Shown here piece after piece: positions 1-36,567 of a DNA stretch of 36,567 nucleotides (the stretch's first letter is position 1; every line of letters begins with the position of its first letter). The position numbers were made by a program, and so were the translations under genes. Location: contig PLNN01000035.1 of NCBI GenBank assembly GCA_003142795.1, positions 1-36,567 of the forward strand. The letters run 5' to 3'. This DNA comes from Candidatus Omnitrophota bacterium (lineage in GTDB: Bacteria; Omnitrophota; Gorgyraeia; 2-01-FULL-45-10). The notes under the pieces are model-generated. The model did no database searches. It had not been told where the DNA came from and saw nothing but the letters and a program-made list of their open reading frames with translations.

Positions 1-3000
1 CATCCGGCATGGTCTACTACCATTATCTTGATGAGAATTGGAACAGTCAGGGATATGGAAGAGTGGATATATCGCGAAGACAGACCGCATTAGATGGCGA
101 GCTATCTTACACGTATACTTACTACCAGGATTCGGCAGGAAGGCTCGAGACGAAAAATGCATATTTTGACTCTAGCTTTACCAACCTTGTGGAAACCTAC
201 TTCTATGACAATGACCCTATAGGAACTGGACACAGCTATTACACCGATGGCCGCATCTCTTCGACAATACTTGCCTCACTCGATTCATCCGGCATGGTCT
301 ACTACCATTATCTTGATGAGAATTGGAACAGTCAAGGATATGGCAGAATGGACACATCGAGAAGAGAGACTGCGTTAGACGGTGAGATATCTTACACATA
401 TAGTTACTACCAGGACTCTACAGGAAGGCTCGAGACGAAAAATGCATATTCAGACCTTAATAGTACATCTCTTGTGAAAACCTACACGTATACCTATTAC
501 GATGATAGCTGTATCCTTTCAACAACACTTGCCTCACCTGATTCATCCGGCATGGTCTACTACCACTATCTTGATGAGGATTGGAACTCTCAGGGCTACG
601 GCAGAATAGACCAATCTGTGAGACAGTCTGCATTAGGTAGCGAGCTATCTTACACGTATAGTTACTACCAGGATTTCACAGGAAGGCTTGATACGAAAAA
701 TGCATATTTTGACTCTAGCTTTACCAACCTTGTGGAAACCTACTTCTATGACAATGACCCTATAGGAACTGGACACAGCTATTACACCGATGGCCGCATC
801 TCTTCGACAATACTTGCCTCACCCGATTCATCAGGCATGATCTACTACCATTATCTTGATGAGAACTGGAATGGTCAAGGGTATGGAAGGGTGGACTTAT
901 CGCGAAGACAGACTGCATTAGACGGTGAGATGTCTTACACATATAGTTACTACCAGGATTCCACAGGACGACTTGAGACGAAGAATGCGTATTCTGACTT
1001 AAACGGGACGGCTCTTATAACAACCCGCACCTATTATAATGATCCAACGAATTACCTTTCCTCAGTAACTTTTGCATTAGCCGATTCTTTTGGCATGATC
1101 TACTATCACTTTCTTGATGAAGATTGGAGCTCTCAAGGATACGGCAGGATTGATAAATCCGCATCAGATATTCCTCGTAACGGTAATCTTGAATATACAT
1201 TTAGCGGCGATCTTGTATATATAGGCGAGCTCTCATATGCCTATACTTATTATGACGATTCTACAGGTCGGCTCAAGACAGTGAATGCATATTCAGACTC
1301 CAATTGCATAAGCCTACTTACAACTTATAACTATTATAACGATTCTACGAATAGACTCGAGACAAAAGTAGATGCGGCCAGCGGCGAGACCTATACCTAT
1401 TATAACGATGCCTCGGGCTACATCGAATCTCAAACATTAGTTTCACCTGATTCTTTCGGGAACGTCTACTACCACTATATCAATGAGAACTGGAACAACC
1501 GGGGATTCGGCAGGGTCGATGAATCTATTATGCAGACTCCTGTTAACGGCGAGCTTTCTTATACGTATACTTACTATATCGAGGATCCGACCTGGGTCGA
1601 GACAAAGAACGCGTATTCCGATGCTAATTGTAAGATGCTTATAGCTACCTACAATTATTTTGATGATGAAACGAACAGGATTAAGTCAAAGACGGAGTTT
1701 CCTGCGGCTACATCTGGTGCGGCGTCACCGATGTTGGATGTCATCAATAGTCAAGGCGTAACCTATACCTATTATAACGATTCCACGGCATATGGGGAAT
1801 CCAAGACTTATATCAATACAAGCGGAAGGATTGAAACAGACTACTATCTAAACGAGAACTGGAATTACCGCAGCTACGGCAGGATCAGTAAATCTACGAC
1901 TGTCAGCGGGAATTCGTATTCCTATACTTACTATGACGATTCTACGGATCGCCTTCAGTCAGTAAGCTCATATTGGGACGATAACTGGACAACTCTCGAT
2001 GCTATCTATAATTATTCTGATGATCCAGCAAATAGAGTTATGTCAAGAACAGATTCTTCTCCATCAATACCTAATGTATCCAGAATAGATTACATCTATT
2101 ATAACGATTCATTAATAAAATCGAAAACTGTGGTTTTTTACAAGGGTTCCTATACTTTAGACTATCTTGATGAGAATTGGGATAATCAAGGCTATGGTAG
2201 AGTTAAGAAAGAATTTGACAATATTTATTATGGCGCCACTCATGAAATAGATATAATTTATTATTATTATACTGACGATTCGGGATGTCCCGCTGGAATG
2301 ACAGTTCATAGGGAATTCCCGGAATTCCCAAGCACATCCTACGATGGTAGTATAACCATAGCTAGGGGGTTTGACGTTGACCCATACCATTATACGCGTT
2401 ATACGCTTTGGCCCGGTAACACTCGGTTGTACTACACAGGTACTTTTTATCTCACTTATACCGGAAACTTGCTTGTTGAAGGAGAGCCCACGACGCAGAC
2501 ATTCAATGGTATTGATGTGACCGCTGGAGGTTGGGACGATACGTATGAGTCGCAAAATATATTGCAGGTTAATGCTATACAACAACAGATTTCGAATTTG
2601 AATAATTCGACTGACCAGTTTCCGAACGGCGAGGATGCGGGGAAACAACAAATCGATAATAAAAATCAGCAGATAGGTATTGATTCCAATAATATTATGG
2701 ATTTGAGTGATTTTATGAATCGTGATGATTTAAAAGCGGTATTAAAAGCAAAGTATGGTGATCAGAAGGGTACTGAATTATTTGATGGTGTAACGAATAT
2801 AGAAACTTATCTAAACCAGAATTATCCGTCTATCGATATAAGAGCTAACGATTACGTTAATACGACAGTAAATTTACCACCCACGCTCGACAATCTGGGT
2901 ATCAAGATATCATTTTCCGCCGGCGACCCATTTTTTGGTAGTTATGATGTAGATCCTTTACTCGGAGTTTATAATGGCCGCGATGCTTTTGTTAAAGTTG

Positions 3001-3539
3001 ATATCGACCTCAAGAATGGCTCTGCCGTAGAAGCGAATATAACGACTACTTCAGGACCAACATTCTTTACCAAGACGACCTTAAGCACAGATTTGACCCA
3101 GATAGGCTCAGAGAACGGTTCATATATCACTCTCTACTCTCCAGCATTGTCTTCTACCTCCTACAATTTTTCTGGCGTCAATGCCGAGGGCTGTTATTTT
3201 GGGGTACGCTATGATACGGTTAATACAACTGACCTGTTACATACGAATTCCGAAGCCCTTGTCTACATTCCGCAGGAAGTGATAGAAGGGCGGAGGCAGG
3301 CCGTGACCAGTAGTGAAGTATATGGGAAATTATTGTATGATATATACAACAATACCAAAATGTCTTTGACACCGGCAGAGATGAATATTATTGAAACGGG
3401 AACTGCAGTGATTGCCCAACAGGCCCTGCAGAATATTACATCGCTGACACCGACCGACAAGATGAGTATAATCAATGGCCAGATAGCCGATATACTTTAT
3501 AAAGTTATGGCGCCACATATAATATATTATATAGAGTAA
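1..3539 (+). CDS. C-terminal part of a large repeat protein (YD/RHS-like degenerate repeats, units with YYHYLDENWNSQGYGR and YTYYxDSTGRLETKNAY); start lies upstream of the window
   Basis: ORF open from the first bases (in-frame S-G-M matches the repeat context DSSGMVYYHYLDE); many imperfect internal repeats; stop at 3539. Confidence 0.8.
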   Translation, partial: SGMVYYHYLDENWNSQGYGRVDISRRQTALDGELSYTYTYYQDSAGRLETKNAYFDSSFTNLVETYFYDNDPIGTGHSYYTDGRISSTILASLDSSGMVYYHYLDENWNSQGYGRMDTSRRETALDGEISYTYSYYQDSTGRLETKNAYSDLNSTSLVKTYTYTYYDDSCILSTTLASPDSSGMVYYHYLDEDWNSQGYGRIDQSVRQSALGSELSYTYSYYQDFTGRLDTKNAYFDSSFTNLVETYFYDNDPIGTGHSYYTDGRISSTILASPDSSGMIYYHYLDENWNGQGYGRVDLSRRQTALDGEMSYTYSYYQDSTGRLETKNAYSDLNGTALITTRTYYNDPTNYLSSVTFALADSFGMIYYHFLDEDWSSQGYGRIDKSASDIPRNGNLEYTFSGDLVYIGELSYAYTYYDDSTGRLKTVNAYSDSNCISLLTTYNYYNDSTNRLETKVDAASGETYTYYNDASGYIESQTLVSPDSFGNVYYHYINENWNNRGFGRVDESIMQTPVNGELSYTYTYYIEDPTWVETKNAYSDANCKMLIATYNYFDDETNRIKSKTEFPAATSGAASPMLDVINSQGVTYTYYNDSTAYGESKTYINTSGRIETDYYLNENWNYRSYGRISKSTTVSGNSYSYTYYDDSTDRLQSVSSYWDDNWTTLDAIYNYSDDPANRVMSRTDSSPSIPNVSRIDYIYYNDSLIKSKTVVFYKGSYTLDYLDENWDNQGYGRVKKEFDNIYYGATHEIDIIYYYYTDDSGCPAGMTVHREFPEFPSTSYDGSITIARGFDVDPYHYTRYTLWPGNTRLYYTGTFYLTYTGNLLVEGEPTTQTFNGIDVTAGGWDDTYESQNILQVNAIQQQISNLNNSTDQFPNGEDAGKQQIDNKNQQIGIDSNNIMDLSDFMNRDDLKAVLKAKYGDQKGTELFDGVTNIETYLNQNYPSIDIRANDYVNTTVNLPPTLDNLGIKISFSAGDPFFGSYDVDPLLGVYNGRDAFVKVDIDLKNGSAVEANITTTSGPTFFTKTTLSTDLTQIGSENGSYITLYSPALSSTSYNFSGVNAEGCYFGVRYDTVNTTDLLHTNSEALVYIPQEVIEGRRQAVTSSEVYGKLLYDIYNNTKMSLTPAEMNIIETGTAVIAQQALQNITSLTPTDKMSIINGQIADILYKVMAPHIIYYIE
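150..279. repeat. 130-bp repeat copy 1; copy 2 at 693-822 appears identical by eye
   Basis: Direct comparison of acgaaaaatgcatattttgac...cgacaatacttgcctcac at both places, offset 543 bp. Confidence 0.85.
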
Positions 3540-22714: not shown

Positions 22715-24061
22715 ATGCGAAAAAAAGCTTTTACCATCCTGGAATTGCTGATAGTAATAGTAGTGTTATGTGCCCTGGTCGGCATAGCTTTGGTTTCATA
22801 CAAGTACTATGTCGAAAAAGCTCAATCCGCCGAAGCGCTCGTCAACATCGACGTTATAAAACGGGGCGAAGAGATACGCCATTTGCAGGCGGGCGCTTAC
22901 GTAGAGGCAAACGGCGCGGACGATATCAACGCAAAGCTATCTTTAAATATTATGCCCAGGTATTACGACTATGCTGTTTTTGTGGATACGGCCGCAGATA
23001 ATTTTTTGGTAGTGGCAAAGAGGTTAGGGGAAGATCTGAGCGATTATCTTGGCTCAGGCACTTTGCCGGCTGATTTCATGGTTATAGCTATGGATAAATC
23101 TGGCGGTGTGAGTAATTCCGATCTTTTTGCTACGACCGGAGGGCAGGGTACCGGAGGCGGCTCCGGCGGCACAAGCGGCTTTGGCGGCGGTGGTGGCGGG
23201 GTTACATCGTGGATTGGCGGTGGTGGCGGCACGGGCGGAGGGACCGGTGGCGGCACAGGAGGCGGATCGGGCGGGACCGGGGGTGGCACCGGTGCCCAAC
23301 AGCCTCAGGGTGTTGGAAACGCAACGGCAGCAGGCCTGCCAGGCACCGTGTATAATGCAACGATCGATGAAATAATGGCTGCGATTTCTTCAATGCCAGC
23401 TACGCAATTTAGCTATACAACATCCACAAATATAACTCAACAAGGCGATACAGTACAAAGCCTTTTGGACCTTATTGCGAACCGGAACATACAGATCGCT
23501 TGGGCGGACCTGCCTTACTCGGTTGAAGTAACTTCGACATATTGGTCAATCTTCGGTATTTGGGGCACCTGGGTTAGCCCCGCAGATAATGTCATACGGC
23601 TTAATAGCGCAATGCAGACCCTGCCAGGCTTTCCGCCGGAAGATATTGCATCGATACTAATACATGAAGCTACTCATGCCGATTATGCATATAATTCAAA
23701 CAAATGGGAGAATCGCATCAAAACAATGTGGCCCGACGTGGGTGCTACAGTTGATGCGGCAATAGCCAAAGGAGATCCGGATCCGCTTCGAAGCCAGTTA
23801 TATCAAAATACCATAGGAGGCGTAACCGAGTGGGCTTTGGCTTCGACTCAAATCGAAGAATACTTTACTCACATGAATGAGGCTGAGCTTTGGGGACAAC
23901 TCCGGACTAATTATGCGGGCGTAGAAGGCGCAGGGATAATGATGGAAGACGATAACTATACTTATTCTCAATCTGAGGCTGATATGCGCGCGCATATTGG
24001 CTCTATGTCTATTTACGCTAGTCTGCCCGTATTTTATTATGACCCTAACAATCCAACTTAA
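22715..24061 (+). CDS. Type IV pilin/pseudopilin N-terminus + Gly-rich linker + C-terminal domain with HEXXH motif
   Basis: MRKKAFTILELLIVIVVLCALVGIALVSYKYYVEKAQSAEA; GGGTGGGTGGGSGGTGGG linker; IASILIHEATHADYAYN (HEATH at 23663-23677). Confidence 0.8.
   Translation: MRKKAFTILELLIVIVVLCALVGIALVSYKYYVEKAQSAEALVNIDVIKRGEEIRHLQAGAYVEANGADDINAKLSLNIMPRYYDYAVFVDTAADNFLVVAKRLGEDLSDYLGSGTLPADFMVIAMDKSGGVSNSDLFATTGGQGTGGGSGGTSGFGGGGGGVTSWIGGGGGTGGGTGGGTGGGSGGTGGGTGAQQPQGVGNATAAGLPGTVYNATIDEIMAAISSMPATQFSYTTSTNITQQGDTVQSLLDLIANRNIQIAWADLPYSVEVTSTYWSIFGIWGTWVSPADNVIRLNSAMQTLPGFPPEDIASILIHEATHADYAYNSNKWENRIKTMWPDVGATVDAAIAKGDPDPLRSQLYQNTIGGVTEWALASTQIEEYFTHMNEAELWGQLRTNYAGVEGAGIMMEDDNYTYSQSEADMRAHIGSMSIYASLPVFYYDPNNPT
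23140..23300 (+). repeat. Low-complexity Gly-rich coding repeat (ggcggn)n
   Basis: Direct reading; encodes GGQGTGGGSGGTSGFGGGGGG...GGGTG. Confidence 0.85.
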
Positions 24062-25020: not shown

Positions 25021-25536
25021 TTAATCCTCGTGTGGGTGGAAACCTATACGTCGCTTTGGTTTCTCGGACGGCGTTAAAAGTTGTCTTATTGCGTCAAAGA
25101 CAATTTTGAACTGATGGTCGTATTTTGTTTCCATTTCAGCTATTTTCTTCCTAAGGTCATTATTTGTTAGAAGCATTCTTCTTAGCTGAGTAAACGTACG
25201 CATTATTTGTATATTTACTTGGATAGCTTTTTTGCTATTGAGGACGCTGGAGAGCATTAAAATCCCGTATTCAGTGAAGGCCAAAGGTCTTTTACGTAAT
25301 CCCATTTTTTCCTTATTGGATATCACAATTTGTGATATCCAATTTTTCGCCTCGTTCTCGGTTATCTGGAACATAAAATCGTCAGGAAACCTCAGAATAT
25401 TTCTCTTCACTGCTTGATTTAGGATTCTGGTTTCTGTGCCATACAAGAACGCTAAATCGCGATCAAGCATAACTTTCTTACCTCTTATCATGTATATCTT
25501 ACTGGCGATTACGTCCGTTGATAGTAAATTAGACAT
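25021..25536 (-). CDS. ORF6N-domain (KilA-N-associated) DNA-binding protein
   Basis: VIASKIYMIRGKKVMLDRDLAFLYGTETRILNQAVKRNILRFPDDFMFQIT...RPLAFTEYGILMLSSVLNSKKAIQVNIQIMRTF. Confidence 0.9.
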   Translation of the reverse strand: MSNLLSTDVIASKIYMIRGKKVMLDRDLAFLYGTETRILNQAVKRNILRFPDDFMFQITENEAKNWISQIVISNKEKMGLRKRPLAFTEYGILMLSSVLNSKKAIQVNIQIMRTFTQLRRMLLTNNDLRKKIAEMETKYDHQFKIVFDAIRQLLTPSEKPKRRIGFHPHED

Positions 25537-25624: not shown

Positions 25625-26131
25625 TTACCCCCACAGGTTTCTATCCAGGCTCCTGTATGAGATCGCCTCGGAAATATGATGGGCCTCGATGACGTCTTTC
25701 CCGTCGAGGTCAGCGATCGTGCGGGAGACTCGCAGGATCTTATCATAAGCCCTTGCCGATATGCCAAGCTCCAGGATCGCCAGCTTCAACAATTCTTCGC
25801 TTTCTTTGTCGAGGACACAGAACTTCTCCAGCTCTTTCGACTCAAGATGCGCGTTAAAATAAACACGTTCGTTCCCGTAACGCGCCTTTTGTCTCTCCAA
25901 AGCCTTATCGACACGCCTTCGTATCTCATCTGAAGGCTCGCCTCTGCGCTTATCGGTCAGGTGCTCCAATTTCAACCGGGGGACTTCAAGATGAATATCT
26001 ATCCTGTCGAGAAGCGGCCCCGATATTTTTGAAAGATAGTTCTGTATCTGGAACGGCGAACAGTGGCATTCGTGTTTGGGGTCGGTGAAGTATCCGCACG
26101 GGCAGGGGTTCATAAATAGAATTTTACTCAT
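25625..26131 (-). pseudogene. comM: C-terminal fragment of ComM/YifB (Mg-chelatase-like AAA ATPase), N-terminal two-thirds missing
   Basis: MNPCPCGYFTDPKHECHCSPFQIQNYLSKISGPLLDRIDIHLEVPRL...GISARAYDKILRVSRTIADLDG...EAISYRSLDRNLWG; homology stops just upstream of MNPCPCG. Confidence 0.92.
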
Positions 26132-26217: not shown

Positions 26218-26997
26218 ATGGGAAAAGGGAAAAGGTGTGTTACTGCGGAAGATCGCTGGAAAAGGATATTAAGCAAAACTAATTACTATAATATCAAAGA
26301 TAAGTGGGAGAAGGCCTTAAAAGCCAATGATTGTCGCGATCTTAAAAAGAAGGAAGATCCGCTGGCAGGGATCTATAAAACACACGGAGATACTTCAACT
26401 CTCGGTCGAATAAGTAATTATAATAGTTTATTTTGGGGATGCTTTTCCAATCCTGTCTATACCAAACAGAAGATCGACGATGAAATTAAGTATGATGTAA
26501 CCGAGAAAGGCATACTACAGAATGGAAGCCGGGCAAGTCAAATAAATGAGAGGTTGAAGAAACTCCACGAAGGTCCGGTCCGTAGCGCATTCGATAAGGT
26601 TAAGGCGCCTCATTATGAGAAGTATGGAAGGTATTGCCATTCAAAAGATGAGAGTATTTTCGATTTCCTTAAAATAGCGCGCATGAAAGAATATAGTTTT
26701 CTAATCTATCCTGCGTCGGGCAGCCAAGCAGAGCAAGAATCCAAAAGCAAAGCTCCGAAGTTTGGCATAGCTTCTGTCAACATAATGAGCAAGCTACAAC
26801 GCAATGTAGGGTTTCTTCGTTCAAAGGGCAAGAGCATCAAAGAAATAGCGACAGAACTTAATTGCACGGAGCAGAATATAAGAAAGGCATTGAGCCGATA
26901 TGTGAAGAATTGCAGAAAACAAGCCGAATATCGAGATAAAATAGCTCAAAAAAAGTTTGAAAAAAGACTGGAAAATAGTCCAAAAACGGTTGTTTAA
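26218..26997 (+). CDS. Uncharacterised protein with C-terminal helix-turn-helix-like segment
   Basis: RSKGKSIKEIATELNCTEQNIRKALSRYVKNCRKQ resembles a sigma-70 region 4/recombinase-type HTH. Confidence 0.6.
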   Translation: MGKGKRCVTAEDRWKRILSKTNYYNIKDKWEKALKANDCRDLKKKEDPLAGIYKTHGDTSTLGRISNYNSLFWGCFSNPVYTKQKIDDEIKYDVTEKGILQNGSRASQINERLKKLHEGPVRSAFDKVKAPHYEKYGRYCHSKDESIFDFLKIARMKEYSFLIYPASGSQAEQESKSKAPKFGIASVNIMSKLQRNVGFLRSKGKSIKEIATELNCTEQNIRKALSRYVKNCRKQAEYRDKIAQKKFEKRLENSPKTVV

Positions 26998-27096
26998 TTT
27001 CCTTATAGTGAGGGGATAAAAACCCTTTCCATAGCACCATAGGGGCAGGGGAGTTTCCCACTTCCTTGCCCCATTCAAAAAAATCGGATCATAGTA

Positions 27097-27235
27097 GGTC
27101 TCGTATTTATAAACTGAAAGCGCCTATATAGGCTTAACCTATAACGCTTGGGGTTGAGACCACCCGCATTTTCTAAGGGATGTCATTATACTTAGATTTT
27201 AGCCCAGTATGCTTAACGGCATATTGGGTTTTTTT
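27097..27235 (+). ncRNA. Candidate structured RNA: nested stems followed by a rho-independent terminator
   Basis: GGTCTC(27097-27102)/GAGACC(27156-27161); AAGCG(27118-27122)/CGCTT(27145-27149); TATAGG(27127-27132)/CCTATA(27138-27143); terminator 27203-27235. Confidence 0.4.
27203..27235 (+). terminator. Rho-independent terminator
   Basis: CCCAGTATGC-TTAACG-GCATATTGGG then TTTTTTT. Confidence 0.88.
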
Positions 27236-27270
27236 GTGTTTATAAGCCTAAAAGGAGGTTAATTAAGCGT

Positions 27271-27489
27271 ATGAATAAGCGTATGCGTGGCCGTATCAAG
27301 TGGTATCACGGAAAAAAGCATTTCGGATTCATTGTCGGGGATGAAGACAACCGTGAAGTTTTCTTCCATATAGATGATTGCCGGGGATTCTCGCCTGAAG
27401 AAACCATGCTTGTCGAATTTGAAATAGGGCTTGATCGTATAAAGAGAGAAAAGGCAATGAATATTAGAACCGTAACCGTAGAACCGTAG
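27271..27489 (+). CDS. Cold-shock-domain-like protein
   Basis: GRIKWYHGKKHFGFIVGDEDNREVFFHIDDC; RBS aggagg upstream. Confidence 0.8.
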   Translation: MNKRMRGRIKWYHGKKHFGFIVGDEDNREVFFHIDDCRGFSPEETMLVEFEIGLDRIKREKAMNIRTVTVEP

Positions 27490-27498
27490 GAGAGCTAA

Positions 27499-29631
27499 AT
27501 GGAACAACAAACAAAAACACCCCTTGAATGGGCATTATTCTATGCCTCTAAAGGTTGGGCGGTATTTCCATGTGATAACGAGAAACGCCCGATGACTGAG
27601 CATGGATTCAAAAACGCAACAACCGACCCTGAAAAGGTAACCGAGTATTTTACTCGTTATCCCAATGCTAATATTGGAATTGCCACAGGCAAGGTATCAG
27701 GCCTTTTCCTTTTAGATATAGACATTAAAAAAGGAAATATTGGTGATCAGTCTTTACGTGAATTGGAAGATGAATATGGCAAGTTACCGCACACTGTTTC
27801 GGAAATAACCTGGAGTGGCGGGCAGCATTTTTTCTTTAAATACCCTGAATGCGGAATGCCGAACGTGCCATTTATTCGCCCGGGGATTGAAATTAAAGGA
27901 GATGGTGGATATGCTATCGTTGCTCCTTCTAAATATAAAGGGGAATGTGGCGAAGGTGACTACTGTTGGGAAGTGAGCTCTAGTCCTGAAGATACAGAGC
28001 TTGCCGAGGCTCCTGAATGGTTACTGAAGATAACGTTAGACATACTCTCAGACAAAATTTCTACCGATCCCGCCGAAAAGACTGTAGGTGATATAAGTAT
28101 TACCGATGTCTTATCAAAGGCAAACATTTCTACGAAAACAATCGGAGGGCAGCTTGTATGCAGCCACCCTGTTCATGGTTCAACGAATGGTAATAACTTC
28201 GTTGTTCATCCCGAGAAAAATGTATGGCGCTGCTTCAGGTGCGGATCCGGCGGGGGAGCGTTATCATTGATTGCCGTATTGGAAGGCATTATTCCATGCG
28301 ACCAAGCAAGGCCTAGAGGATTAAAAGAAGATAATTTTATAAAGACCCTCGATCTTGCGGAAGAAAAATACGGATTTAAGGTAAAACACTCCCACAAAGG
28401 AAACAGGCATATAAAAGTAGCCTCAGAAATACAGAAGACGCACAAGATAATATATTGCGCCAATGATTATTATGAGTATCAGGGCGGATACTACAAGAAG
28501 ATAGATGAGGCCATTATTCAGGGATGGATAAAGCAGCTTGTCGGAGATCAGTTTAGACGCTGCTTGGCTGAAGAGGTTAAATATGCTATTCAGACCGACA
28601 CTTACCTTGAGCCGGATAAGTTAAATACGTCTAATTTTCTTAATCTCAAGAACGGACTTTATAACCTTGAGGATGAAACATTAAAGCCTCATACCCCCGA
28701 TATATACTCTACGATCCGGCTTAATGTATCTTATGATAAAAAGGCAACCTGTCCAAAGTGGTGTAAGGCCGTCCACGAGATCCTTGAGGGGGACCAGGGG
28801 AAGGTCGCTACCTTGCAGGAATATTTCGGTCTCTGTCTTACGAAGGAAACGAGATACCATAGGGCGTTGTTTATGCTCGGAGAGGGAGCAAATGGAAAGT
28901 CAACCATCCTCTATATCCTTGAAAACATTATAGGTGAGCAGAACAGGACCGCACTTCCGCTTGAGGTCCTCAATAATCCTCTATATATAGCCAATCTCTA
29001 TAATAAGCTTGTGAATATAAGCATAGAGACTAACGCTAAGAGTGAAGTTTATGACGCTTATTTTAAGGCTATCGTTGCCGGCGATACGGTAAAAGCTAAC
29101 CCAAAATATAAAGAACCTTTCGACTTCAGGCCATATTGTAAGCTGATTTACGCGCTCAACACTATGCCAAGAGTTAATGACAAGACGTATGCGTTTTATA
29201 GAAGGCTTCTCATATTAAAATTTAATCGGCAATTCCAGGGTAACTACGACAATAAAAACCTGAAATATGAACTCCTAAAAGAGATAGACGGGATCTTCTT
29301 ATGGTGTATAGAAGGCTTGCGTAATCTTCGGCAAAATGGAGATTTTAAACCCACGGATGAAATGGTAAAGGAGGTCGAGGAGTATCGCCGGGAGAATAAC
29401 AACGTGCTCCTATTCGTTGAAGAGGAATATGAACTCGGGCCGGACAACTCAATATCCAAGAAAGATAGTTACATCGATTATTCCGAATGGTGTAAGACAA
29501 ACGGATATAAGCCTCTCTCCAAGAAACGCCTTAGTATGGAGTTTATCAAACAATTTCATCTTGAGCCCGATTCAAGGGATAATTTCGGGGATAGGGTATG
29601 GTTAGGGATAGGAAAGCGGAGAATGGCTTGA
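27499..29631 (+). CDS. Phage/plasmid primase-helicase: Prim-Pol (AEP) + CHC2-like Zn finger + D5_N + SF3 helicase
   Basis: KGWAVFPC..KRP; FLLDIDIKKGN; CSHPVHGSTNGNNFVVHPEKNVWRCFRCGSGGGALSLI; Walker A MLGEGANGKST; KLIYALNTMPRVND. Confidence 0.92.
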   Translation: MEQQTKTPLEWALFYASKGWAVFPCDNEKRPMTEHGFKNATTDPEKVTEYFTRYPNANIGIATGKVSGLFLLDIDIKKGNIGDQSLRELEDEYGKLPHTVSEITWSGGQHFFFKYPECGMPNVPFIRPGIEIKGDGGYAIVAPSKYKGECGEGDYCWEVSSSPEDTELAEAPEWLLKITLDILSDKISTDPAEKTVGDISITDVLSKANISTKTIGGQLVCSHPVHGSTNGNNFVVHPEKNVWRCFRCGSGGGALSLIAVLEGIIPCDQARPRGLKEDNFIKTLDLAEEKYGFKVKHSHKGNRHIKVASEIQKTHKIIYCANDYYEYQGGYYKKIDEAIIQGWIKQLVGDQFRRCLAEEVKYAIQTDTYLEPDKLNTSNFLNLKNGLYNLEDETLKPHTPDIYSTIRLNVSYDKKATCPKWCKAVHEILEGDQGKVATLQEYFGLCLTKETRYHRALFMLGEGANGKSTILYILENIIGEQNRTALPLEVLNNPLYIANLYNKLVNISIETNAKSEVYDAYFKAIVAGDTVKANPKYKEPFDFRPYCKLIYALNTMPRVNDKTYAFYRRLLILKFNRQFQGNYDNKNLKYELLKEIDGIFLWCIEGLRNLRQNGDFKPTDEMVKEVEEYRRENNNVLLFVEEEYELGPDNSISKKDSYIDYSEWCKTNGYKPLSKKRLSMEFIKQFHLEPDSRDNFGDRVWLGIGKRRMA

Positions 29632-29791
29632 CGCATTTGAAATTATGGGATAACCAATCTGTGCTTGTCTTGTCGCTTTTGTCGCATTTGGCGCATTTTC
29701 CTATTGTTTATTATGATTTCATTTTTTTAAAGAAAAGAAAGAAAAATAGATAAAAAGAGGTAAATATATAATTACAGAATAACAATAAGAA

Positions 29792-29817
29792 AATCTGTCA
29801 AATCTGTCAATCTGTCA
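29792..29817. repeat. Three direct 9-bp iterons AATCTGTCA
   Basis: aatctgtca at 29792, 29801, 29809 (last two share one base). Confidence 0.7.
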
Positions 29818-29839
29818 AACATAGAAGGAGTAAAAAAAC

Positions 29840-30238
29840 ATGGAAAATCAACATAAGGCAACTGAATTTAATCCGACACCTGAACAGATAGTTTTTGCAG
29901 AGGCATATATAAAGCAACAGGGCAATGTTACGCAAGCGTTTGAGGAGATAGACAAAGACAGAACCGTTTATTACACAAACTGGCGTAAGCAACCCGGCTT
30001 TGAGACGTGGCTTTCCGAGTATGCTAAGACAGAGGTCCTTAAACGCATAGGCAAATGGTATCTGATCGCTGAAAAGTATGCTGAGGCCGGGTCCTTCAAG
30101 CATCTTGAAATGCTTATGCAGATAGCGAAAGAGTTTAAGGCTGCGCCTGGTGTCGAGTTTAATACCTATCAAGCCTTCTTTGACAAGATCGCTGAGAAGG
30201 GTCTTCAGACTAAGCGAGGTATAGCACATGACGAATGA
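29840..30238 (+). CDS. Terminase small subunit-like protein
   Basis: PTPEQIVFAEAYIKQQGNVTQAFEEI...YTNWRKQPGFETWL HTH-type pattern; immediately upstream of TerL. Confidence 0.65.
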   Translation: MENQHKATEFNPTPEQIVFAEAYIKQQGNVTQAFEEIDKDRTVYYTNWRKQPGFETWLSEYAKTEVLKRIGKWYLIAEKYAEAGSFKHLEMLMQIAKEFKAAPGVEFNTYQAFFDKIAEKGLQTKRGIAHDE

Positions 30239-31733
30239 AGAGAGGGAGGAAGGTCTGCAGATAGCCGCGGAAAAATCAAAGAAGAGCCTCGTTGACTTTA
30301 GGTCTTTTTGCCTTAGCCAGGATGGTGATCTCGAGTCGGCAGCTTTTCATTATCAATGGTCCAAGATGTTATTGGAGGATAGCGACAACTTTGCTATCGA
30401 GGCCTTCCGTGAGTCCGGGAAATCTCAGTATGTTTTGCGGTCCTTCCCGCTTTATTGTCTTATGTTCCCAAGCGTCAAAAGAGACTACATAGTGATAATC
30501 AAAAAGAACGCTACCCTTGCTAACAGTAAGCTCAAAGAGATAACGCGAGAATTTATGTCGAGTCCTTTGATGTCTCAAAGACGCGTTAAGGTATATGACG
30601 AGTCCGGAGAGGTATTCAATGTGGATGTGAAGAATGACGCGGGCGAGATTGTCAACGTGCGGATAGAGGCTTACGGTAAGGGTGGATCTATTAGGGGCCT
30701 GTCATACAAGGACCGCCGGCCTAAGATAGTTATTATAGACGACCCTCAGGATGTAGAAGACGCGGAGAGCGAGGCAATAAACGAGACTGACTGGAATTGG
30801 TTTGTGTCAGACGTAATGTTCTTAGGGCAGAACGCGCGGGTATTTCTTATTGGTAACAACCTCGGGGAAAAATCCATAATCGAAAGAGTGTTTACTCAAG
30901 CTGAATCTCTGAAATTTAAGACCATGAGGATCCCGGCTATCGTAGATGGACAGTCAGCTTGGCCATCTAAATATACTATCGAATCCATAGAGGCAGAGAG
31001 AGAAAACTTTCGCAAGCTCGGGAAGATAGATATTTGGATGAGAGAAAAGATGTGCGAAGCCCTCTCTGATGAGATGAGGACCTTTCATAAAGAAGATATT
31101 ATGCATTATGATCCGGCTCTCATTTCTGAACTATCCAAAAAGTGTAACATCTTTATCGCCGTTGACCTTGCCATAAGCGAGAAAAAGAGCGCAGACTATA
31201 CTGCGATTCCTGTTGTGGGAGTGAACTCTGACAATCAATGGTTCATCCTCGATTGCGTGTATGGCCGGTTCGATCCGTCAACGACGATAGACCACATCTT
31301 TAACCTTGTGCGCCGGTGGCATCCGATAATAGTTGGAATCGAAAAAGTCGCCTTCCAGCGCGCCCTGATACACTTCGTTATGAAAGAAATGCCTATCAGG
31401 AATACGTTCTTCTGTATACAACAACTTGAGGCGGAGAAGCAGAAAGAGCTTCGCATTAAAGCATTGCAGCCGCGCTTCAAAGCTAAGACGGTATGGCTTC
31501 CGCAGAAGGCATCCTGGCTTGATGAAATGGAGACAGAGCTTCTCAGATTCCCTAAGTGTCTGCACGATGATCTGATTGATGCGCTTGCTTACATAGAAAC
31601 ATTCAGCTATCCCATGGACAAAGCGTTTCTACGTAGACAGGAGTTTGCAAACACAGGCATAAACCTCGAATTTGCAAACAATGGGAACTATGATCTGCTT
31701 GCTATAGATCCGAAATTTGACCCATTTAAATAG
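30228..31733 (+). CDS. Phage terminase large subunit (ATPase + nuclease)
   Basis: AFRESGKSQY; PKIVIIDDPQD; IFIAVDLAISEKKSADYTAIPVVGV; HPIIVGIEKVAFQRAL; CLHDDLIDALAYIE. Confidence 0.9.
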   Translation: MTNEEREEGLQIAAEKSKKSLVDFRSFCLSQDGDLESAAFHYQWSKMLLEDSDNFAIEAFRESGKSQYVLRSFPLYCLMFPSVKRDYIVIIKKNATLANSKLKEITREFMSSPLMSQRRVKVYDESGEVFNVDVKNDAGEIVNVRIEAYGKGGSIRGLSYKDRRPKIVIIDDPQDVEDAESEAINETDWNWFVSDVMFLGQNARVFLIGNNLGEKSIIERVFTQAESLKFKTMRIPAIVDGQSAWPSKYTIESIEAERENFRKLGKIDIWMREKMCEALSDEMRTFHKEDIMHYDPALISELSKKCNIFIAVDLAISEKKSADYTAIPVVGVNSDNQWFILDCVYGRFDPSTTIDHIFNLVRRWHPIIVGIEKVAFQRALIHFVMKEMPIRNTFFCIQQLEAEKQKELRIKALQPRFKAKTVWLPQKASWLDEMETELLRFPKCLHDDLIDALAYIETFSYPMDKAFLRRQEFANTGINLEFANNGNYDLLAIDPKFDPFK

Positions 31734-31790
31734 GGCAAACAATACCCCCCTGTATTTAGTAGGGGTTTTCATACACAAAAAAGAGAGGGT

Positions 31791-31810
31791 AAACAAACGA
31801 CCGTTTGTTT
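31791..31810. promoter_or_regulatory. Operator-like inverted repeat AAACAAACG-AC-CGTTTGTTT
   Basis: Perfect 9-bp arms, 2-bp spacer. Confidence 0.55.
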
Positions 31811-32002
31811 GGTATATATGGACAGGGCCGGTTTAGTAAATTTGAGAAACAGAGCAATGAGCGTTATACATAGTGCCAGGACGCATAGGATTGCGTAGGA
31901 TTAACGACGAACTCAAAACAATAGAAATGCTCGCACAAAAAGAAAATCGATTGTGGGGCATTCTAAGACTTAATAGCAAAAAGGGGAGTGGCATTTCCCT
32001 TG

Positions 32003-32031
32003 TTGACACCCTTTCTTTTTCGTCCTACAAT
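32003..32031 (+). promoter_or_regulatory. Strong sigma70-like promoter
   Basis: TTGACA - 17 nt - TACAAT, upstream of the 32105 ORF. Confidence 0.75.
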
Positions 32032-32104
32032 AGTCTTATATACTACAAGGCTTTACGTATAAGTAACATATAATAATATTAGCAAAACTATCGGAAGGGA
32101 AAAT

Positions 32105-32494
32105 ATGGCAAATACATTATCCTATCTTCTTACTTGTGGGCGTGTAATTAAAGACCAAAACACCCAATTTTTTACTTATTTAGATGTGTTTGATATGCTT
32201 GTAATACCCAAAGGAAGCGAATTTTTAATTCAAAGTTTTTGTGTTGCTGGAAAACTACATTTGGATATAAGCGGTCAGGTTGAAGCAAAAATAAAATTTA
32301 TATATCCCGATGGAACGGAGTCGATCCCTTCAAGCGTAAGCGGTATTGTAAATCCAGGGTATCTTGAGATTACGGCATCTTTCAATATGGTAAAATTTTC
32401 TCAAATCGGGAAACACTATCTCAAAGTAAATTTTCAAGGAGAGCAACTGGAGACAAGTAATAAATTTTATTTTGAAGTTATCAAACAACCTTAA
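32105..32494 (+). CDS. Hypothetical beta-rich protein, possibly DUF6941-like
   Basis: 129-aa ORF after the promoter; pattern IDISGQVEAKIKFIYPDGTE; family assignment tentative. Confidence 0.6.
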   Translation: MANTLSYLLTCGRVIKDQNTQFFTYLDVFDMLVIPKGSEFLIQSFCVAGKLHLDISGQVEAKIKFIYPDGTESIPSSVSGIVNPGYLEITASFNMVKFSQIGKHYLKVNFQGEQLETSNKFYFEVIKQP

Positions 32495-32499
32495 AAATT

Positions 32500-32829
32500 A
32501 TGCCAAACGAACCTTTAGAATCTCTTACCCCCAATGCTGAACCTGCAAAACAGTCTCTTGAACAAAGACCTTCTAAGAACGATAAAGATGTAGTAGCCGA
32601 ACTTTATGAAAAAACGCGGCAACTCCAAAAAGAGATTGCCAAGCATAAGAGAGAACTCGATATATTACTTGGATTGGTAGTTTTTGGATTTATCGTTTTG
32701 TTGGTTATGGTGGCTGAGATGATAATACAATCGTGCCACGAGAGAGCCGTATCTTACAATGAATTATTAAAGCAAGTCTATTCCTTGCAGAACCAGGTTC
32801 AGTCGCAAGATGATAAAGCCGATTATTGA
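32500..32829 (+). CDS. Small coiled-coil/single-TM protein
   Basis: Predicted coiled coil then LLGLVVFGFIVLLVMVAEMII. Confidence 0.6.
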   Translation: MPNEPLESLTPNAEPAKQSLEQRPSKNDKDVVAELYEKTRQLQKEIAKHKRELDILLGLVVFGFIVLLVMVAEMIIQSCHERAVSYNELLKQVYSLQNQVQSQDDKADY

Positions 32830-32859
32830 AAATGAAGAGATAAATATAAAGTAATATTG

Positions 32860-32886
32860 GCAACCTCAAAAGGGTTGCTTTTTGTT
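32860..32886 (+). terminator. Rho-independent terminator
   Basis: GCAACC-tcaaaag-GGTTGC then TTTTTG. Confidence 0.8.
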
Positions 32887-32898
32887 TCGAAATACATC

Positions 32899-32927
32899 TT
32901 GTATTAGATTGTGTCAGATTGTATAAT
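32899..32927 (+). promoter_or_regulatory. Sigma70-like promoter
   Basis: TTGTAT - 17 nt - TATAAT. Confidence 0.65.
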
Positions 32928-32959
32928 AAGCAGAGACATAGACAAGGAGTATTGTAAGA

Positions 32960-33154
32960 ATGCATAAGATTTTAGTAACAAAAGAAGTAGCCCAAATGCT
33001 TCGCTTGCACGAAGAATATGTAAGAGAGCTTATCCGGCAGAGGAAGCTTAAGGCCTATAGAGAGGGCCGGAGAGGCGGCTATCGTATAACTATGAAGGCA
33101 GTTGATGATTATATTGCCAAGAAACATAGAGAGATGGAGGTTTCTAAACGATGA
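32960..33154 (+). CDS. Excisionase/MerR-type helix-turn-helix protein (HTH_17-like)
   Basis: LVTKEVAQMLRLHEEYVRELIRQRKLKAYREGRRGGYRITMKAVDDYIAK. Confidence 0.82.
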   Translation: MHKILVTKEVAQMLRLHEEYVRELIRQRKLKAYREGRRGGYRITMKAVDDYIAKKHREMEVSKR

Positions 33155-33363
33155 AATACTCATACCTAATAGGTGGGCTTGTGGCGTTCGGTTTAAGCTT
33201 TATAGTCCATAGGTTTTTTATTCAGTTTATCGTTCTTGGAGTATTTCTAATAGTCTTATATGTGATCGAGAAGAATAGTTGCGATGTGGTAGCCTTAAGA
33301 GTGTCGATTGAAGAGCATAATGAGTTAATAAAGAAAGACATAGAGGAGATGAAGAAGAAATAA
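33151..33363 (+). CDS. Small membrane protein
   Basis: Hydrophobic IGGLVAFGLSFIVHRFFIQFIVLGVFLIVLYVI; 4-nt overlap with the upstream ORF. Confidence 0.55.
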   Translation: MKYSYLIGGLVAFGLSFIVHRFFIQFIVLGVFLIVLYVIEKNSCDVVALRVSIEEHNELIKKDIEEMKKK

Positions 33364-33377
33364 GGAGAGGGAACAAT

Positions 33378-34709
33378 ATGAGAAATAGGAAACCGTTACT
33401 ACTTTTATGTCTATCAATAATGATCCTTTGGAGTATAGGTTGTGCGAAGCAGTCGGCACAAATCGCCATAGTTAAAGACGGTGAGAAAACTGAATACTAT
33501 GATTCTCAAAAGAGGCAGATTAAAAGCATGGGAATTTATAAAAACGGTAAGCTCGATGGTAAATACAAAGAGTTTTATCAGGATGGAGAACTGAAAGTAG
33601 AGGCAGCTTATAAAGACGGACAGAAAAATGAAGCCTATAAGGCTTATTTTCCAAAATTTGAACTTAATCAATTAGCTCAAAAAATTAAAGAAGAGACTTT
33701 TTTTATTAATGGCAAAGAAAATGGAATCCACAAGAAATACTATGATGATGGAACGCTTTCAGAGGAGTCAACTTTTGTAGATGGCAAACAAGAAGGAATT
33801 GATAAATTTTATAATTTAGACGGAAGCTTAATGAATGAGCTGAATTTTAAATCTGGCAAGCAGGATGGATTATCAAAATCATATAATGACAAAGGGAATT
33901 TGATTGGAGAGTCAAATTATAAAGATGGAGTATTGAATGGAATTAGTAAAGTATATCTTAGTAACGGACAGGTATCTTATGAATTAAATTATAAGAATGG
34001 TATTAATGATGGTTTTTATAAAACATATTATCCGAATGGAAATCTTAAGGAAGAAATTACTGTAAAAAATGACAAATGGAATGGTCCTGCCAAAATGTAT
34101 TATGAAAATGGGGTCTTACAAAAGGAAGTAAATTTTAAAAATCAGAAGGAAGAAGGGCTTGGTAAGACGTATGACGAAAATGGGAACTTAATGGCTGAAG
34201 TTATAATGAGAAACGGGAAAAAAGATGGAATTATGAAAATTTATAAGGACGTAAAACTTACTAATAAACTCATGCAAGATATGTATAAAGATACAAAGCT
34301 TAGACAAGAGATTAACTTTAAAGAGGACAAGTTGATCGGTTCCAAAATTTATGATGACAAAAATGATGTTATTGAAGAAGATTATTTTTATGATGATGAT
34401 AAACAACTAACAAAGGCTTATATACTATACGATGATGAGACCATGAAGCCCTTGCCAACACCCGTATTATTTATTGAGCAAAACATGAAAAATGATAAAC
34501 CGGAGGGGGTAACTAAGATATATAATGCATTAGGAGCTGTAACGGTTGAGTGGAATTATCATAATGGCAAGCCGGATGGCATAACGAAAAGTTACTATCA
34601 TAATCATACTACAGTCGTTCAATATGCCGACACATACAAAGATGGCGTAAAAATTCATAGAAAAGCTTATGATGAAGAGGGAAAGCTTAAGTTTGAACAG
34701 GATTATTAA
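33378..34709 (+). CDS. MORN_2-repeat lipoprotein (YwqK-like)
   Basis: Lipobox IMILWSIGCAKQ; repeated KNGKLDGKYKEFYQDGEL / KDGVLNGISKVYLSNGQVSYELNYKNGINDGFYKTYYPNGNLKEE. Confidence 0.85.
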   Translation: MRNRKPLLLLCLSIMILWSIGCAKQSAQIAIVKDGEKTEYYDSQKRQIKSMGIYKNGKLDGKYKEFYQDGELKVEAAYKDGQKNEAYKAYFPKFELNQLAQKIKEETFFINGKENGIHKKYYDDGTLSEESTFVDGKQEGIDKFYNLDGSLMNELNFKSGKQDGLSKSYNDKGNLIGESNYKDGVLNGISKVYLSNGQVSYELNYKNGINDGFYKTYYPNGNLKEEITVKNDKWNGPAKMYYENGVLQKEVNFKNQKEEGLGKTYDENGNLMAEVIMRNGKKDGIMKIYKDVKLTNKLMQDMYKDTKLRQEINFKEDKLIGSKIYDDKNDVIEEDYFYDDDKQLTKAYILYDDETMKPLPTPVLFIEQNMKNDKPEGVTKIYNALGAVTVEWNYHNGKPDGITKSYYHNHTTVVQYADTYKDGVKIHRKAYDEEGKLKFEQDY

Positions 34710-34718
34710 GAGGTAAAA

Positions 34719-35243
34719 ATGAGAATCGTGGTAGTTTTAGTTTGTCTATTACTAATATCAGCTGTTACCTTTGCCGACACGCAAGTCTATTTCTCCCCTA
34801 ACGGTGGCTGCCAGAAGGCTGTTATTACAGAGATCGATAAGGCTCAAAAAACCGTTGATATTGCAATGTATTACCTTACCGCAAGAGAAATCGCCCAGGA
34901 GCTTGTTAAGGCTAAAGATCGTAATGTAAAAGTGCGGATCGTATTAGACAAAAGCCAAGAAACGCAGAATTATTCTAAGAGCAGATATTTAATCAAACGA
35001 GGCTTTGAGGTTAAATATCATACTGGCCCTGGCCTTATGCATAATAAATTCGCTGTTATCGATAACAATGTTCTTATAACAGGTTCATTTAACTGGACTC
35101 CTACAGCAGATCAAAAGAATGAAGAAAACTTACTTATAATGACTGATAAGGATCTTGTAAGGAAATATACCGATAGGTTTGAATATTTGTGGAAGATGGG
35201 CAGAAAGGGCGAATTAAAGGGGGGAGAAACTGATGAAGAGTAG
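34719..35243 (+). CDS. Exported phospholipase D-like (HKD) nuclease
   Basis: Signal peptide; MHNKFAVIDNNVLITGSFNWTPTADQKNEENLLI. Confidence 0.9.
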   Translation: MRIVVVLVCLLLISAVTFADTQVYFSPNGGCQKAVITEIDKAQKTVDIAMYYLTAREIAQELVKAKDRNVKVRIVLDKSQETQNYSKSRYLIKRGFEVKYHTGPGLMHNKFAVIDNNVLITGSFNWTPTADQKNEENLLIMTDKDLVRKYTDRFEYLWKMGRKGELKGGETDEE

Positions 35244-35970
35244 TGTAACGAAACCAATTTACTTATTAATAATTATTATGATTTTAGGGTGTCTCTGGCT
35301 GAAATCAAATTGTTTTGCAAGCGAACATGGTGAAGTGTTCAATTTCACAAAAGATTATATAGAGAGCCTGGGAGATTGTAGATTAGCACAGATTGCAGAA
35401 GAGGACAGTTTGGCGAACAATGCCGGCGACATCAAATCCACTATTGATTTAATGAAAACAGCCAGACTAAAAACGGTTAGATTTAATACGGCTATTTTAC
35501 GATTAGATCCATATAAAAATTCGTCTAATAAGTTGATTAAAGAAGCAGCAGCATTCATTATTAATTCATATCAAATGCTAAAAGAAGCATGCGAAGAAGG
35601 CTTGAGAATGCAAGAGAAATTATTGAATGAAAAAGAAGAGACGTTAAATCAGGGAAAATATGCAAGTAAAGCAAGCGAACTTCAAGCTAAGAGCGAAATG
35701 GCTCTGGAGCAACTAATGCGCTGTTCCGTTTTAGTTGACGATAGTCTTATTGACCTCAAACCGGATGAAAATAATCATTGTTGTTATTTAAATATCACTT
35801 CAGTAGAAAGAAAAGAGCTAATAGATAAAATGCATAGCATCTTTGATGCCAAAATAGACGAGATACAACCCAAGTCTAATTTTAGTTATGTAGATGGTGC
35901 TGCGGCACTTGTAATGAAAATTTTAAAAGACGATCATAAAAGTGCAGATGAAAGACCTAAAGCAAATTAG
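35233..35970 (+). CDS. Hypothetical exported helical protein
   Basis: Signal peptide-like N-terminus; overlaps the PLD gene. Confidence 0.6.
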   Translation: MKSSVTKPIYLLIIIMILGCLWLKSNCFASEHGEVFNFTKDYIESLGDCRLAQIAEEDSLANNAGDIKSTIDLMKTARLKTVRFNTAILRLDPYKNSSNKLIKEAAAFIINSYQMLKEACEEGLRMQEKLLNEKEETLNQGKYASKASELQAKSEMALEQLMRCSVLVDDSLIDLKPDENNHCCYLNITSVERKELIDKMHSIFDAKIDEIQPKSNFSYVDGAAALVMKILKDDHKSADERPKAN

Positions 35971-35989
35971 CTAAAAAATGGGAGGTATT

Positions 35990-36232
35990 ATGTTTAAGAA
36001 ATTATTGGCAAGTTTGTTATTAGGAGTATGTCTGATGTTGTTCTCAGGTGTAAGTGTAGCTCATGCAGATACCTATGTAGGCAGTAAGAACTCAACAAAA
36101 TATCACTATACTTGGTGCAAATGGGCCAAGAAGATCAACCCCAATAATAAGGTTGTCTTTAATTCAGCACAGGAAGCTCAGGCTGCTGGATATATACCAT
36201 GCAAGGTTTGTAAGCCGCCGATGAAAGATTAG
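35990..36232 (+). CDS. Small secreted protein with Ada-like Zn-binding domain; start revised from 35978
   Basis: YVGSKNSTKYHYTWCKWAKKINPNNKVVFNSAQEAQAAGYIPCKVCKP; GGAGG RBS lies inside the upstream start. Confidence 0.75.
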   Translation: MFKKLLASLLLGVCLMLFSGVSVAHADTYVGSKNSTKYHYTWCKWAKKINPNNKVVFNSAQEAQAAGYIPCKVCKPPMKD

Positions 36233-36235
36233 AAT

Positions 36236-36567
36236 ATGCAAAATAACGATCTAAATACTCAAGGAGATACTCCGAGGGAAAAGCGTGCATGGTGTAGATG
36301 TAAGATAAAACTTATCGATTCGATTAAAGAAAAAGGTGATAAAAATAACAAAACCGGAAACTATGGATTTACCGAGGCTGAGCGTAAGGTTCTCGAAGAA
36401 ATGAAAGAGTGGGTTAAAAATTCCTGCCTTGTCTGCCCCTACTGTAAGCGACCATTAAAAGAGGCCGAGATTATGAAAAATTTAGATAAAACAAGAGAGA
36501 TTGTAACCTGTCCATATTGCCATAAAGAAACTATGGGTAGGGAACTAAAATGGGAATGGGAAAAATG
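36236..36567 (+). CDS. Partial ORF with two zinc-ribbon-like CPYC motifs, open at window end
   Basis: MQNNDLNTQGDTPREKRAWCRCKIK...CLVCPYCKRPL...VTCPYCHKETMG. Confidence 0.6.
   Translation, partial: MQNNDLNTQGDTPREKRAWCRCKIKLIDSIKEKGDKNNKTGNYGFTEAERKVLEEMKEWVKNSCLVCPYCKRPLKEAEIMKNLDKTREIVTCPYCHKETMGRELKWEWEK

Follow-up and report, generated by a model that had tools for sequence, protein, structure and literature searches.

A locus that encodes a replicase and both terminase subunits, with no recognised structural genes beside them, raises the question of whether it belongs to an ordinary prophage or to a satellite that travels in the particles of another virus. Such a locus lies at one end of contig PLNN01000035.1 (assembly GCA_003142795.1, Candidatus Omnitrophota bacterium, positions 1 to 36,567, forward strand; GTDB lineage Bacteria; Omnitrophota; Gorgyraeia; 2-01-FULL-45-10). 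This stretch, hereafter the window, is the entire contig C40 (36,567 bp) of a single metagenome-assembled genome (MAG) from an uncultured bacterium (1.94 Mb, 70 contigs, completeness 92%). A preliminary description had suggested a possible phage satellite, a reading that our analysis supports. The arrangement is repeated in a sister element of the same genome, and the satellite lifestyle is a prediction from gene content. We consider it probable that a phage satellite of ~18 kb, inserted in yifB by its own large serine recombinase, has its replication and packaging arm here, and that it is equipped with its own terminase and dependent on the procapsid of a helper podovirus.

Gene content and integration of the element

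As read from the assembly, the window holds one end of an integrated element of ~18 kb (element 1) that encodes a PrimPol-D5 replicase, TerS, TerL, cargo proteins, XRE regulators, a resolvase and a recombinase. The region originally delimited (26218–36567) proved to be a real arm of an element, but its limits did not hold, as the left edge is a split yifB gene at ~26096–26113 and the right coordinate is only the contig end. The attachment core in yifB/comM, ATGAACCC[A/C]TGCCCGTGC (26096–26113), forms this left edge and matches C39:61598-61615 at 17 of 18 positions, at the break of an N-terminal yifB half. A C-terminal fragment of the host yifB/comM flanks the element on the reverse strand of the window (25625–26131; Mg_chelatase_C, 1.4e-32), and a ChlI family search found one yifB in the genome, the N-terminal half on C39, with its break at the identical codons (MNPCPC). 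Beyond that half, C39 encodes a 488-aa large serine recombinase (PF00239 and PF07508; phrog_95, 7.6e-109), a resolvase, two XRE proteins, a 120-aa protein and, at the contig end, a PDZ fragment. Outside the element, an ORF6N-domain protein (25021–25536) adjoins the yifB fragment, and a protein encoded at 22715–24061 has an N-terminus that weakly resembles type IV pilins (below cut-off), as well as a glycine-rich stretch and a HEATH (HExxH-like) motif.

All element genes in the window lie on the forward strand. The first (26218–26997) encodes a 259-aa protein with a C-terminal helix-turn-helix (HTH) resembling sigma region 4 (weak Sigma70_r4_2 match, 2.9e-5, below cut-off), followed by a cold-shock domain protein (CSD; 27271–27489; PF00313, 7e-10; 74% amino acid identity to the element 2 copy described below). 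A PrimPol-CHC2-D5/P4-family replicase is encoded by one 710-aa ORF (27499–29631), in which family matches located PrimPol (PF09250, 3e-39), a CHC2 zinc finger (2e-5) and a D5/P4-family helicase (PF08706, DUF5906, TIGR01613 at 1.7e-73). A TerS-like small terminase subunit (29840–30238) overlaps TerL. The name TerS is an assignment from position, size and conservation, because a family search gave no significant match for this ORF; it is 88% and 79% identical to TerL-linked copies on C70 and L012, respectively, and 30% identical over 98 aa to the TerS of L145. The large subunit, TerL (30228–31733), matched phrog_38 ‘terminase large subunit’ (1.5e-82), Terminase_6C and TIGR01630 (above cut-off); a profile search against the PDB returned no matches. 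Directly after TerL, a terminator-like hairpin with the inverted repeat AACAAACGACCGTTTGTTTG (31744–31812) is kept downstream of TerL in C40, C70 and L012, and shuffled sequences gave no chance match, making it a candidate packaging or operator site.

Downstream follow a DUF6941-like protein (32105–32494; 6.7e-5, below cut-off), a small protein of no clear family that is predicted to contain a membrane segment (32500–32829), and an Xis-like HTH_17 protein (32960–33154; PF12728, 2e-12; excisionase phrog_66, 1e-6). The remainder is cargo: a MORN-repeat lipoprotein (33378–34709; PF07661, 2e-32), a relative of which is carried by C12 (match to L047, 3.6e-36); a secreted PLD-family protein (34719–35243; PF13091, 4e-35); and two further secreted proteins (35233–36232), of 245 aa without known family and of 84 aa with an Ada-like zinc motif. 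A zinc-motif protein (36236–36567) runs to the contig end, its final 22 bases forming the start of C12. The Prim-Pol/CHC2/D5 replicase, TerS-like and TerL proteins and Xis-like HTH that had been claimed for this region were thus borne out, TerS by context and the others by family matches.

The remainder of element 1 was traced through terminal overlaps. The final 22 bases of C40 are the initial 22 bases of C12; one identical 22-mer terminates both C12 and C70, at a gene start, and another opens both C39 (reversed) and C5, inside a PDZ domain. We therefore read element 1 as C40-C12-[PDZ gene]-C39 (17.9 kb plus a gap, ~18 kb in all) and a second element (element 2) as C70-[same PDZ gene]-C5:1-3430 (14.8 kb plus a gap), a pairing settled by the attachment sites: element 1 is framed by the two parts of yifB, element 2 by a tRNA-Glu 3' end. 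The piece missing from the assembly of both elements is probably part of one PDZ lipoprotein gene, with a predicted size of ~0.6 kb, because a similarly laid out homologue in G149 is one lipoprotein of 322 aa in which the PDZ domain is located towards the C-terminal end.

Element 2 (C70 and the start of C5) is bounded by the tRNA-Glu 3' end CCCCATGGGGACGCCAA, present on both contigs as its att site. Both of its ends appear to carry a tyrosine integrase, and it also encodes CSD, PrimPol-D5, TerS and TerL (88% and 81% amino acid identity to element 1, respectively), a 653-aa protein without assigned function and small genes. No portal or capsid was recognised in it, one short predicted gap apart. 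The tyrosine recombinases (L008 2502–3764 and L011 2221–3339) include one with a C-terminal HTH, and element 2 may be a tandem or composite insertion. A virion role for the 653-aa protein was dropped, as it had no significant similarity to the internal virion protein of element 3 (below), and an apparent stop inside the C70 TerL match was only the terminal stop codon.

Origin and maintenance of the terminase

Alignment showed that TerL retains its catalytic positions intact, with EAFRESGKSQ as Walker A, IVIIDDPQD as Walker B, and D313, E372 and D451 as the acidic residues of an RNase-H-type nuclease, roles assigned by reference to the family. In a 94-row tree, the TerLs of the window, C70 and L012 formed one clade (SH-aLRT 100), which was sister to the podovirus TerLs L058-L063 (support 100) inside phage TerLs. 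The closest TerLs were those of podoviruses with a phrog_38 TerL (L058-L063, G388; 63–68% identity). The TerS proteins of these sister phages had no similarity to the element TerS beyond that of shuffled sequences, and a C-terminal motif apparently shared between them was dropped as not significant. As TerL is sister to podovirus TerLs and TerS is unrelated to theirs, the simplest account of this mixed origin is that TerL came from a podovirus and was combined with a different DNA-recognising subunit.

Comparison of elements 1 and 2 gave dN/dS values of 0.068 for TerL (approximate, with dS ~1.8 near saturation), 0.153 for TerS, 0.119 for the PrimPol N-terminus and 0.126 for CSD, indicating that all four are selectively maintained. 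Degraded terminase active sites, which had been named as evidence against a satellite, were looked for and the sites were found intact, with TerL at a dN/dS of ~0.07. These values bear on the possibility that the locus is a prophage in decay, stripped of its structural genes and no longer mobile. The absent structural genes and the host-like appearance of the secreted cargo would suit decay, whereas the intact catalytic residues, dN/dS of 0.07–0.15, complete recombination genes and attachment sites, and recurrence of the same portal-less TerS-TerL pair in element 2, whose integrase and site differ, all argue against it. We regard decay as unlikely.

Related elements and the missing portal and capsid

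A third element is complete on one contig (C5:25350-39654; L009 5350–19654), spanning 14.3 kb between 19-bp repeats of a tRNA-Asp 3' end. It encodes D5, TerS (Terminase_2, 2e-7), an 872-aa homologue of an internal virion protein (phrog_6651, 1.6e-28), XRE, a resolvase and an integrase; TerL, portal and capsid were not recognised in it. A different genome of this class (G088; L224 8130–19901, L232) contributes an element beside tRNA-Ser that encodes CHC2, D5, TerS (Terminase_2, 2e-13) and a TerL-like ATPase (phrog_5902), so named only for its Walker motifs and context. Cargo, a pair of XRE genes, a resolvase, a gene for an HTH protein and an integrase truncated by the contig end make up the rest, and no capsid was recognised. 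From IMG/VR, L145 (14,874 bp; probably circular at 14.7 kb because of a 127-bp terminal repeat) encodes a tape measure protein, HK97 capsid, TerS, TerL (phrog_38), CHC2, D5, integrases and a resolvase, with no portal recognised. A plan of D5, TerS, resolvase and integrase therefore recurs with differing virion fragments.

Scans of IMG/VR with the element 3 internal virion protein and with the PrimPol N-terminus returned none, and a scan with the TerS alignment returned L012 only. Across GTDB contigs, a single TerL sequence found no relatives, and a TerL alignment found ten loci, mostly in Synergistota, none both close and capsid-less. D5 relatives in G127, G059, G196, G346, G135 and G212 were set aside as more distant elements with no bearing on packaging.

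These related elements also inform a second alternative, that element 1 is a non-viral integrative island which spreads by other means and keeps TerS-TerL for a purpose such as concatemer processing or interfering with how an incoming phage is packaged. Much of the cargo (secreted proteins, PLD-family protein, MORN repeats) has no phage relatives, and sequence cannot show whether TerL docks on a helper portal. However, the catalytic sets of both motor and nuclease are retained, the internal virion protein homologue of element 3 and the HK97 capsid and tape measure of L145 point to use of virions, and the family matches run included none to a conjugation gene. An island of this kind seems to us improbable, to about the same degree as decay.

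As the preliminary description had stated, no recognised structural genes follow TerL: its 4.8 kb downstream in the window contained no recognised portal, protease or capsid, and held the DUF6941-like protein, small proteins without assigned function, MORN lipoprotein, PLD-family protein and small secreted proteins instead. A portal, capsid or tail module directly downstream, specified beforehand as the mark of an ordinary prophage, was also sought. No portal, capsid or tail gene was recognised in element 1 when it was followed over the contig joins, which led to the serine recombinase and the second att half. Across the MAG, the portal family PF12236 gave no significant match (best E 0.1), and neither did PF20911, the GP7 capsid of the closest TerL relatives. 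PF12236 does detect portals beside related TerLs (1e-111 to 1e-148). Among related TerL loci gathered from IMG/VR and GTDB, 63 of the 66 with at least 3.7 kb beyond TerL had a portal within 2.4 kb of it, a count read by eye from a combined scan of two profile searches, one of which alone tallies 53. The three without a portal match were rejected as further capsid-less cases, L083 and L130 for head proteins downstream and L122 for an integrase adjoining TerL (235–3339; its TerL belongs to this family and has a tyrosine integrase immediately after it, with no portal match in 3.9 kb). No portal was found in the 3.7 kb after TerL on C70. The same TerS-TerL pair occurs on L012, from another metagenome; with only 1.2 kb beyond TerL, this locus supports the TerS-TerL clade and not by itself the absence of a capsid, so that the label ‘capsid-less’ is provisional for it. 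Divergent structural genes might conceivably be present among the ORFs of the element that lack a family.

Elements 1 and 2 could still be a pair of ordinary prophages if an identical portal, capsid and tail module in both had been merged during assembly and then lost in binning. The same two 22-mers break both gapped elements, hence an identical stretch is indeed missing, but it starts at a gene start and ends in a PDZ domain, and the G149 homologue predicts a length of only ~0.6 kb. A long identical module is itself unlikely given that the adjoining shared genes are only ~80% identical. Moreover, where relatives place the portal at most 2.4 kb from TerL, 4.8 kb in the window and 3.5 kb on C12 are taken up by other genes, and the complete element 3 has no capsid. 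Such a prophage pair is very unlikely, slightly more so than either decay or an island. The recombinase, att site and replicase led us to reject a gene-transfer agent.

Proposed packaging cycle and comparison with known satellites

The reading that we favour is the satellite, and the element probably spreads by loading its own DNA into helper virus particles with its own TerL. Neither a helper phage nor a pac site or an excised form was detected. The analysis establishes the integration signature, a gene content lacking a recognisable portal or capsid, an intact and maintained terminase, the descent of TerL from phages and a TerS that differs from those of the sister phages. The cycle that we propose is as follows. 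Once a helper phage becomes active, the serine recombinase and Xis-like protein would excise the element, which the PrimPol-D5 protein, judging by its domains, would replicate. The DNA would then be marked by the element's TerS, and its podovirus-derived motor, TerL, would dock on the helper portal and pump it into helper procapsids, with portal, capsid, tail and lysis or release functions all supplied by the helper. Because the element measures ~15–18 kb, against 35–40 kb for related phage contigs, we would expect it to be packaged either as concatemers in heads of full size or in smaller heads.

More tentatively, Omnitrophota might host a previously unrecognised satellite family whose members carry their own terminase together with single other virion parts that differ by member (the internal virion protein homologue in element 3; capsid and tape measure in L145) and apparently no portal. 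The helper portal would then be the common docking point, and a podovirus TerL joined to an unrelated TerS would amount to a naturally re-targeted motor. A satellite with a full terminase and no portal would be a plan between those of PICI and cf-PICI, and terminase-portal docking could be common to different genomes, which is testable with defined protein pairs. To our knowledge, no such element is known from Omnitrophota, a phylum with few studied viruses; our comparison covered PICI, cf-PICI, P4-like satellites, PICMI and AH14b, and work on tycheposons, on marine virion-encapsidated elements or on satellites at large may contain a precedent.

We describe the element as satellite-like and integrative, and place it in no named family. 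It agrees with the general notion of a satellite, an integrative element without full virion genes of its own, one short predicted gap included. PICIs have an integrase, a divergent regulator, a primase-replication module, no structural or lytic genes, a size of ~15 kb and at most terS (PMC6092414). The integrase, divergent regulator and primase-replication module have counterparts here, as do the lack of matches to structural and lytic genes among the proteins searched, the size of ~15 kb and the terS that PICIs sometimes carry, a likeness of overall plan; the element differs in its own TerL, its gene order and, for element 1, a serine recombinase. Like cf-PICIs, it encodes both TerS and TerL, but the portal, major capsid protein, protease and connectors that accompany these in cf-PICIs (PMC10690885) were not recognised. 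With P4-like satellites it shares a P4-family primase-helicase (TIGR01613, 1.7e-73), the lack of structural genes and an expected helper dependence. P4 relies on the helper terminase, and none is recognised in AH14b of Pseudomonas (PMC4936722), whereas this element encodes one; sid and psu, which together with AlpA-type genes and the lack of an own terminase define P4-like satellites, were not among the family hits. PICMIs are likewise small integrative elements without capsid-remodelling genes, but they lack identifiable packaging genes and insert beside fis (PMC10803314), in contrast to the TerS-TerL pair and yifB site found here.

A terminase without a portal thus matches none of PICI, cf-PICI, P4, PICMI or AH14b exactly. 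The capsid-less satellites compared use the helper TerL, and those with their own TerL bring portal and capsid, making this element unusual. It also departs from ordinary prophages of its TerL lineage, which have portal and capsid genes close to TerL. The podoviruses L058-L063 and G388, whose phrog_38 TerLs are the closest, differ from the element in encoding a portal, GP7-type or related capsid genes where the sequence allows, and an unrelated TerS, and viruses of this type are the likely TerL donor or helper.
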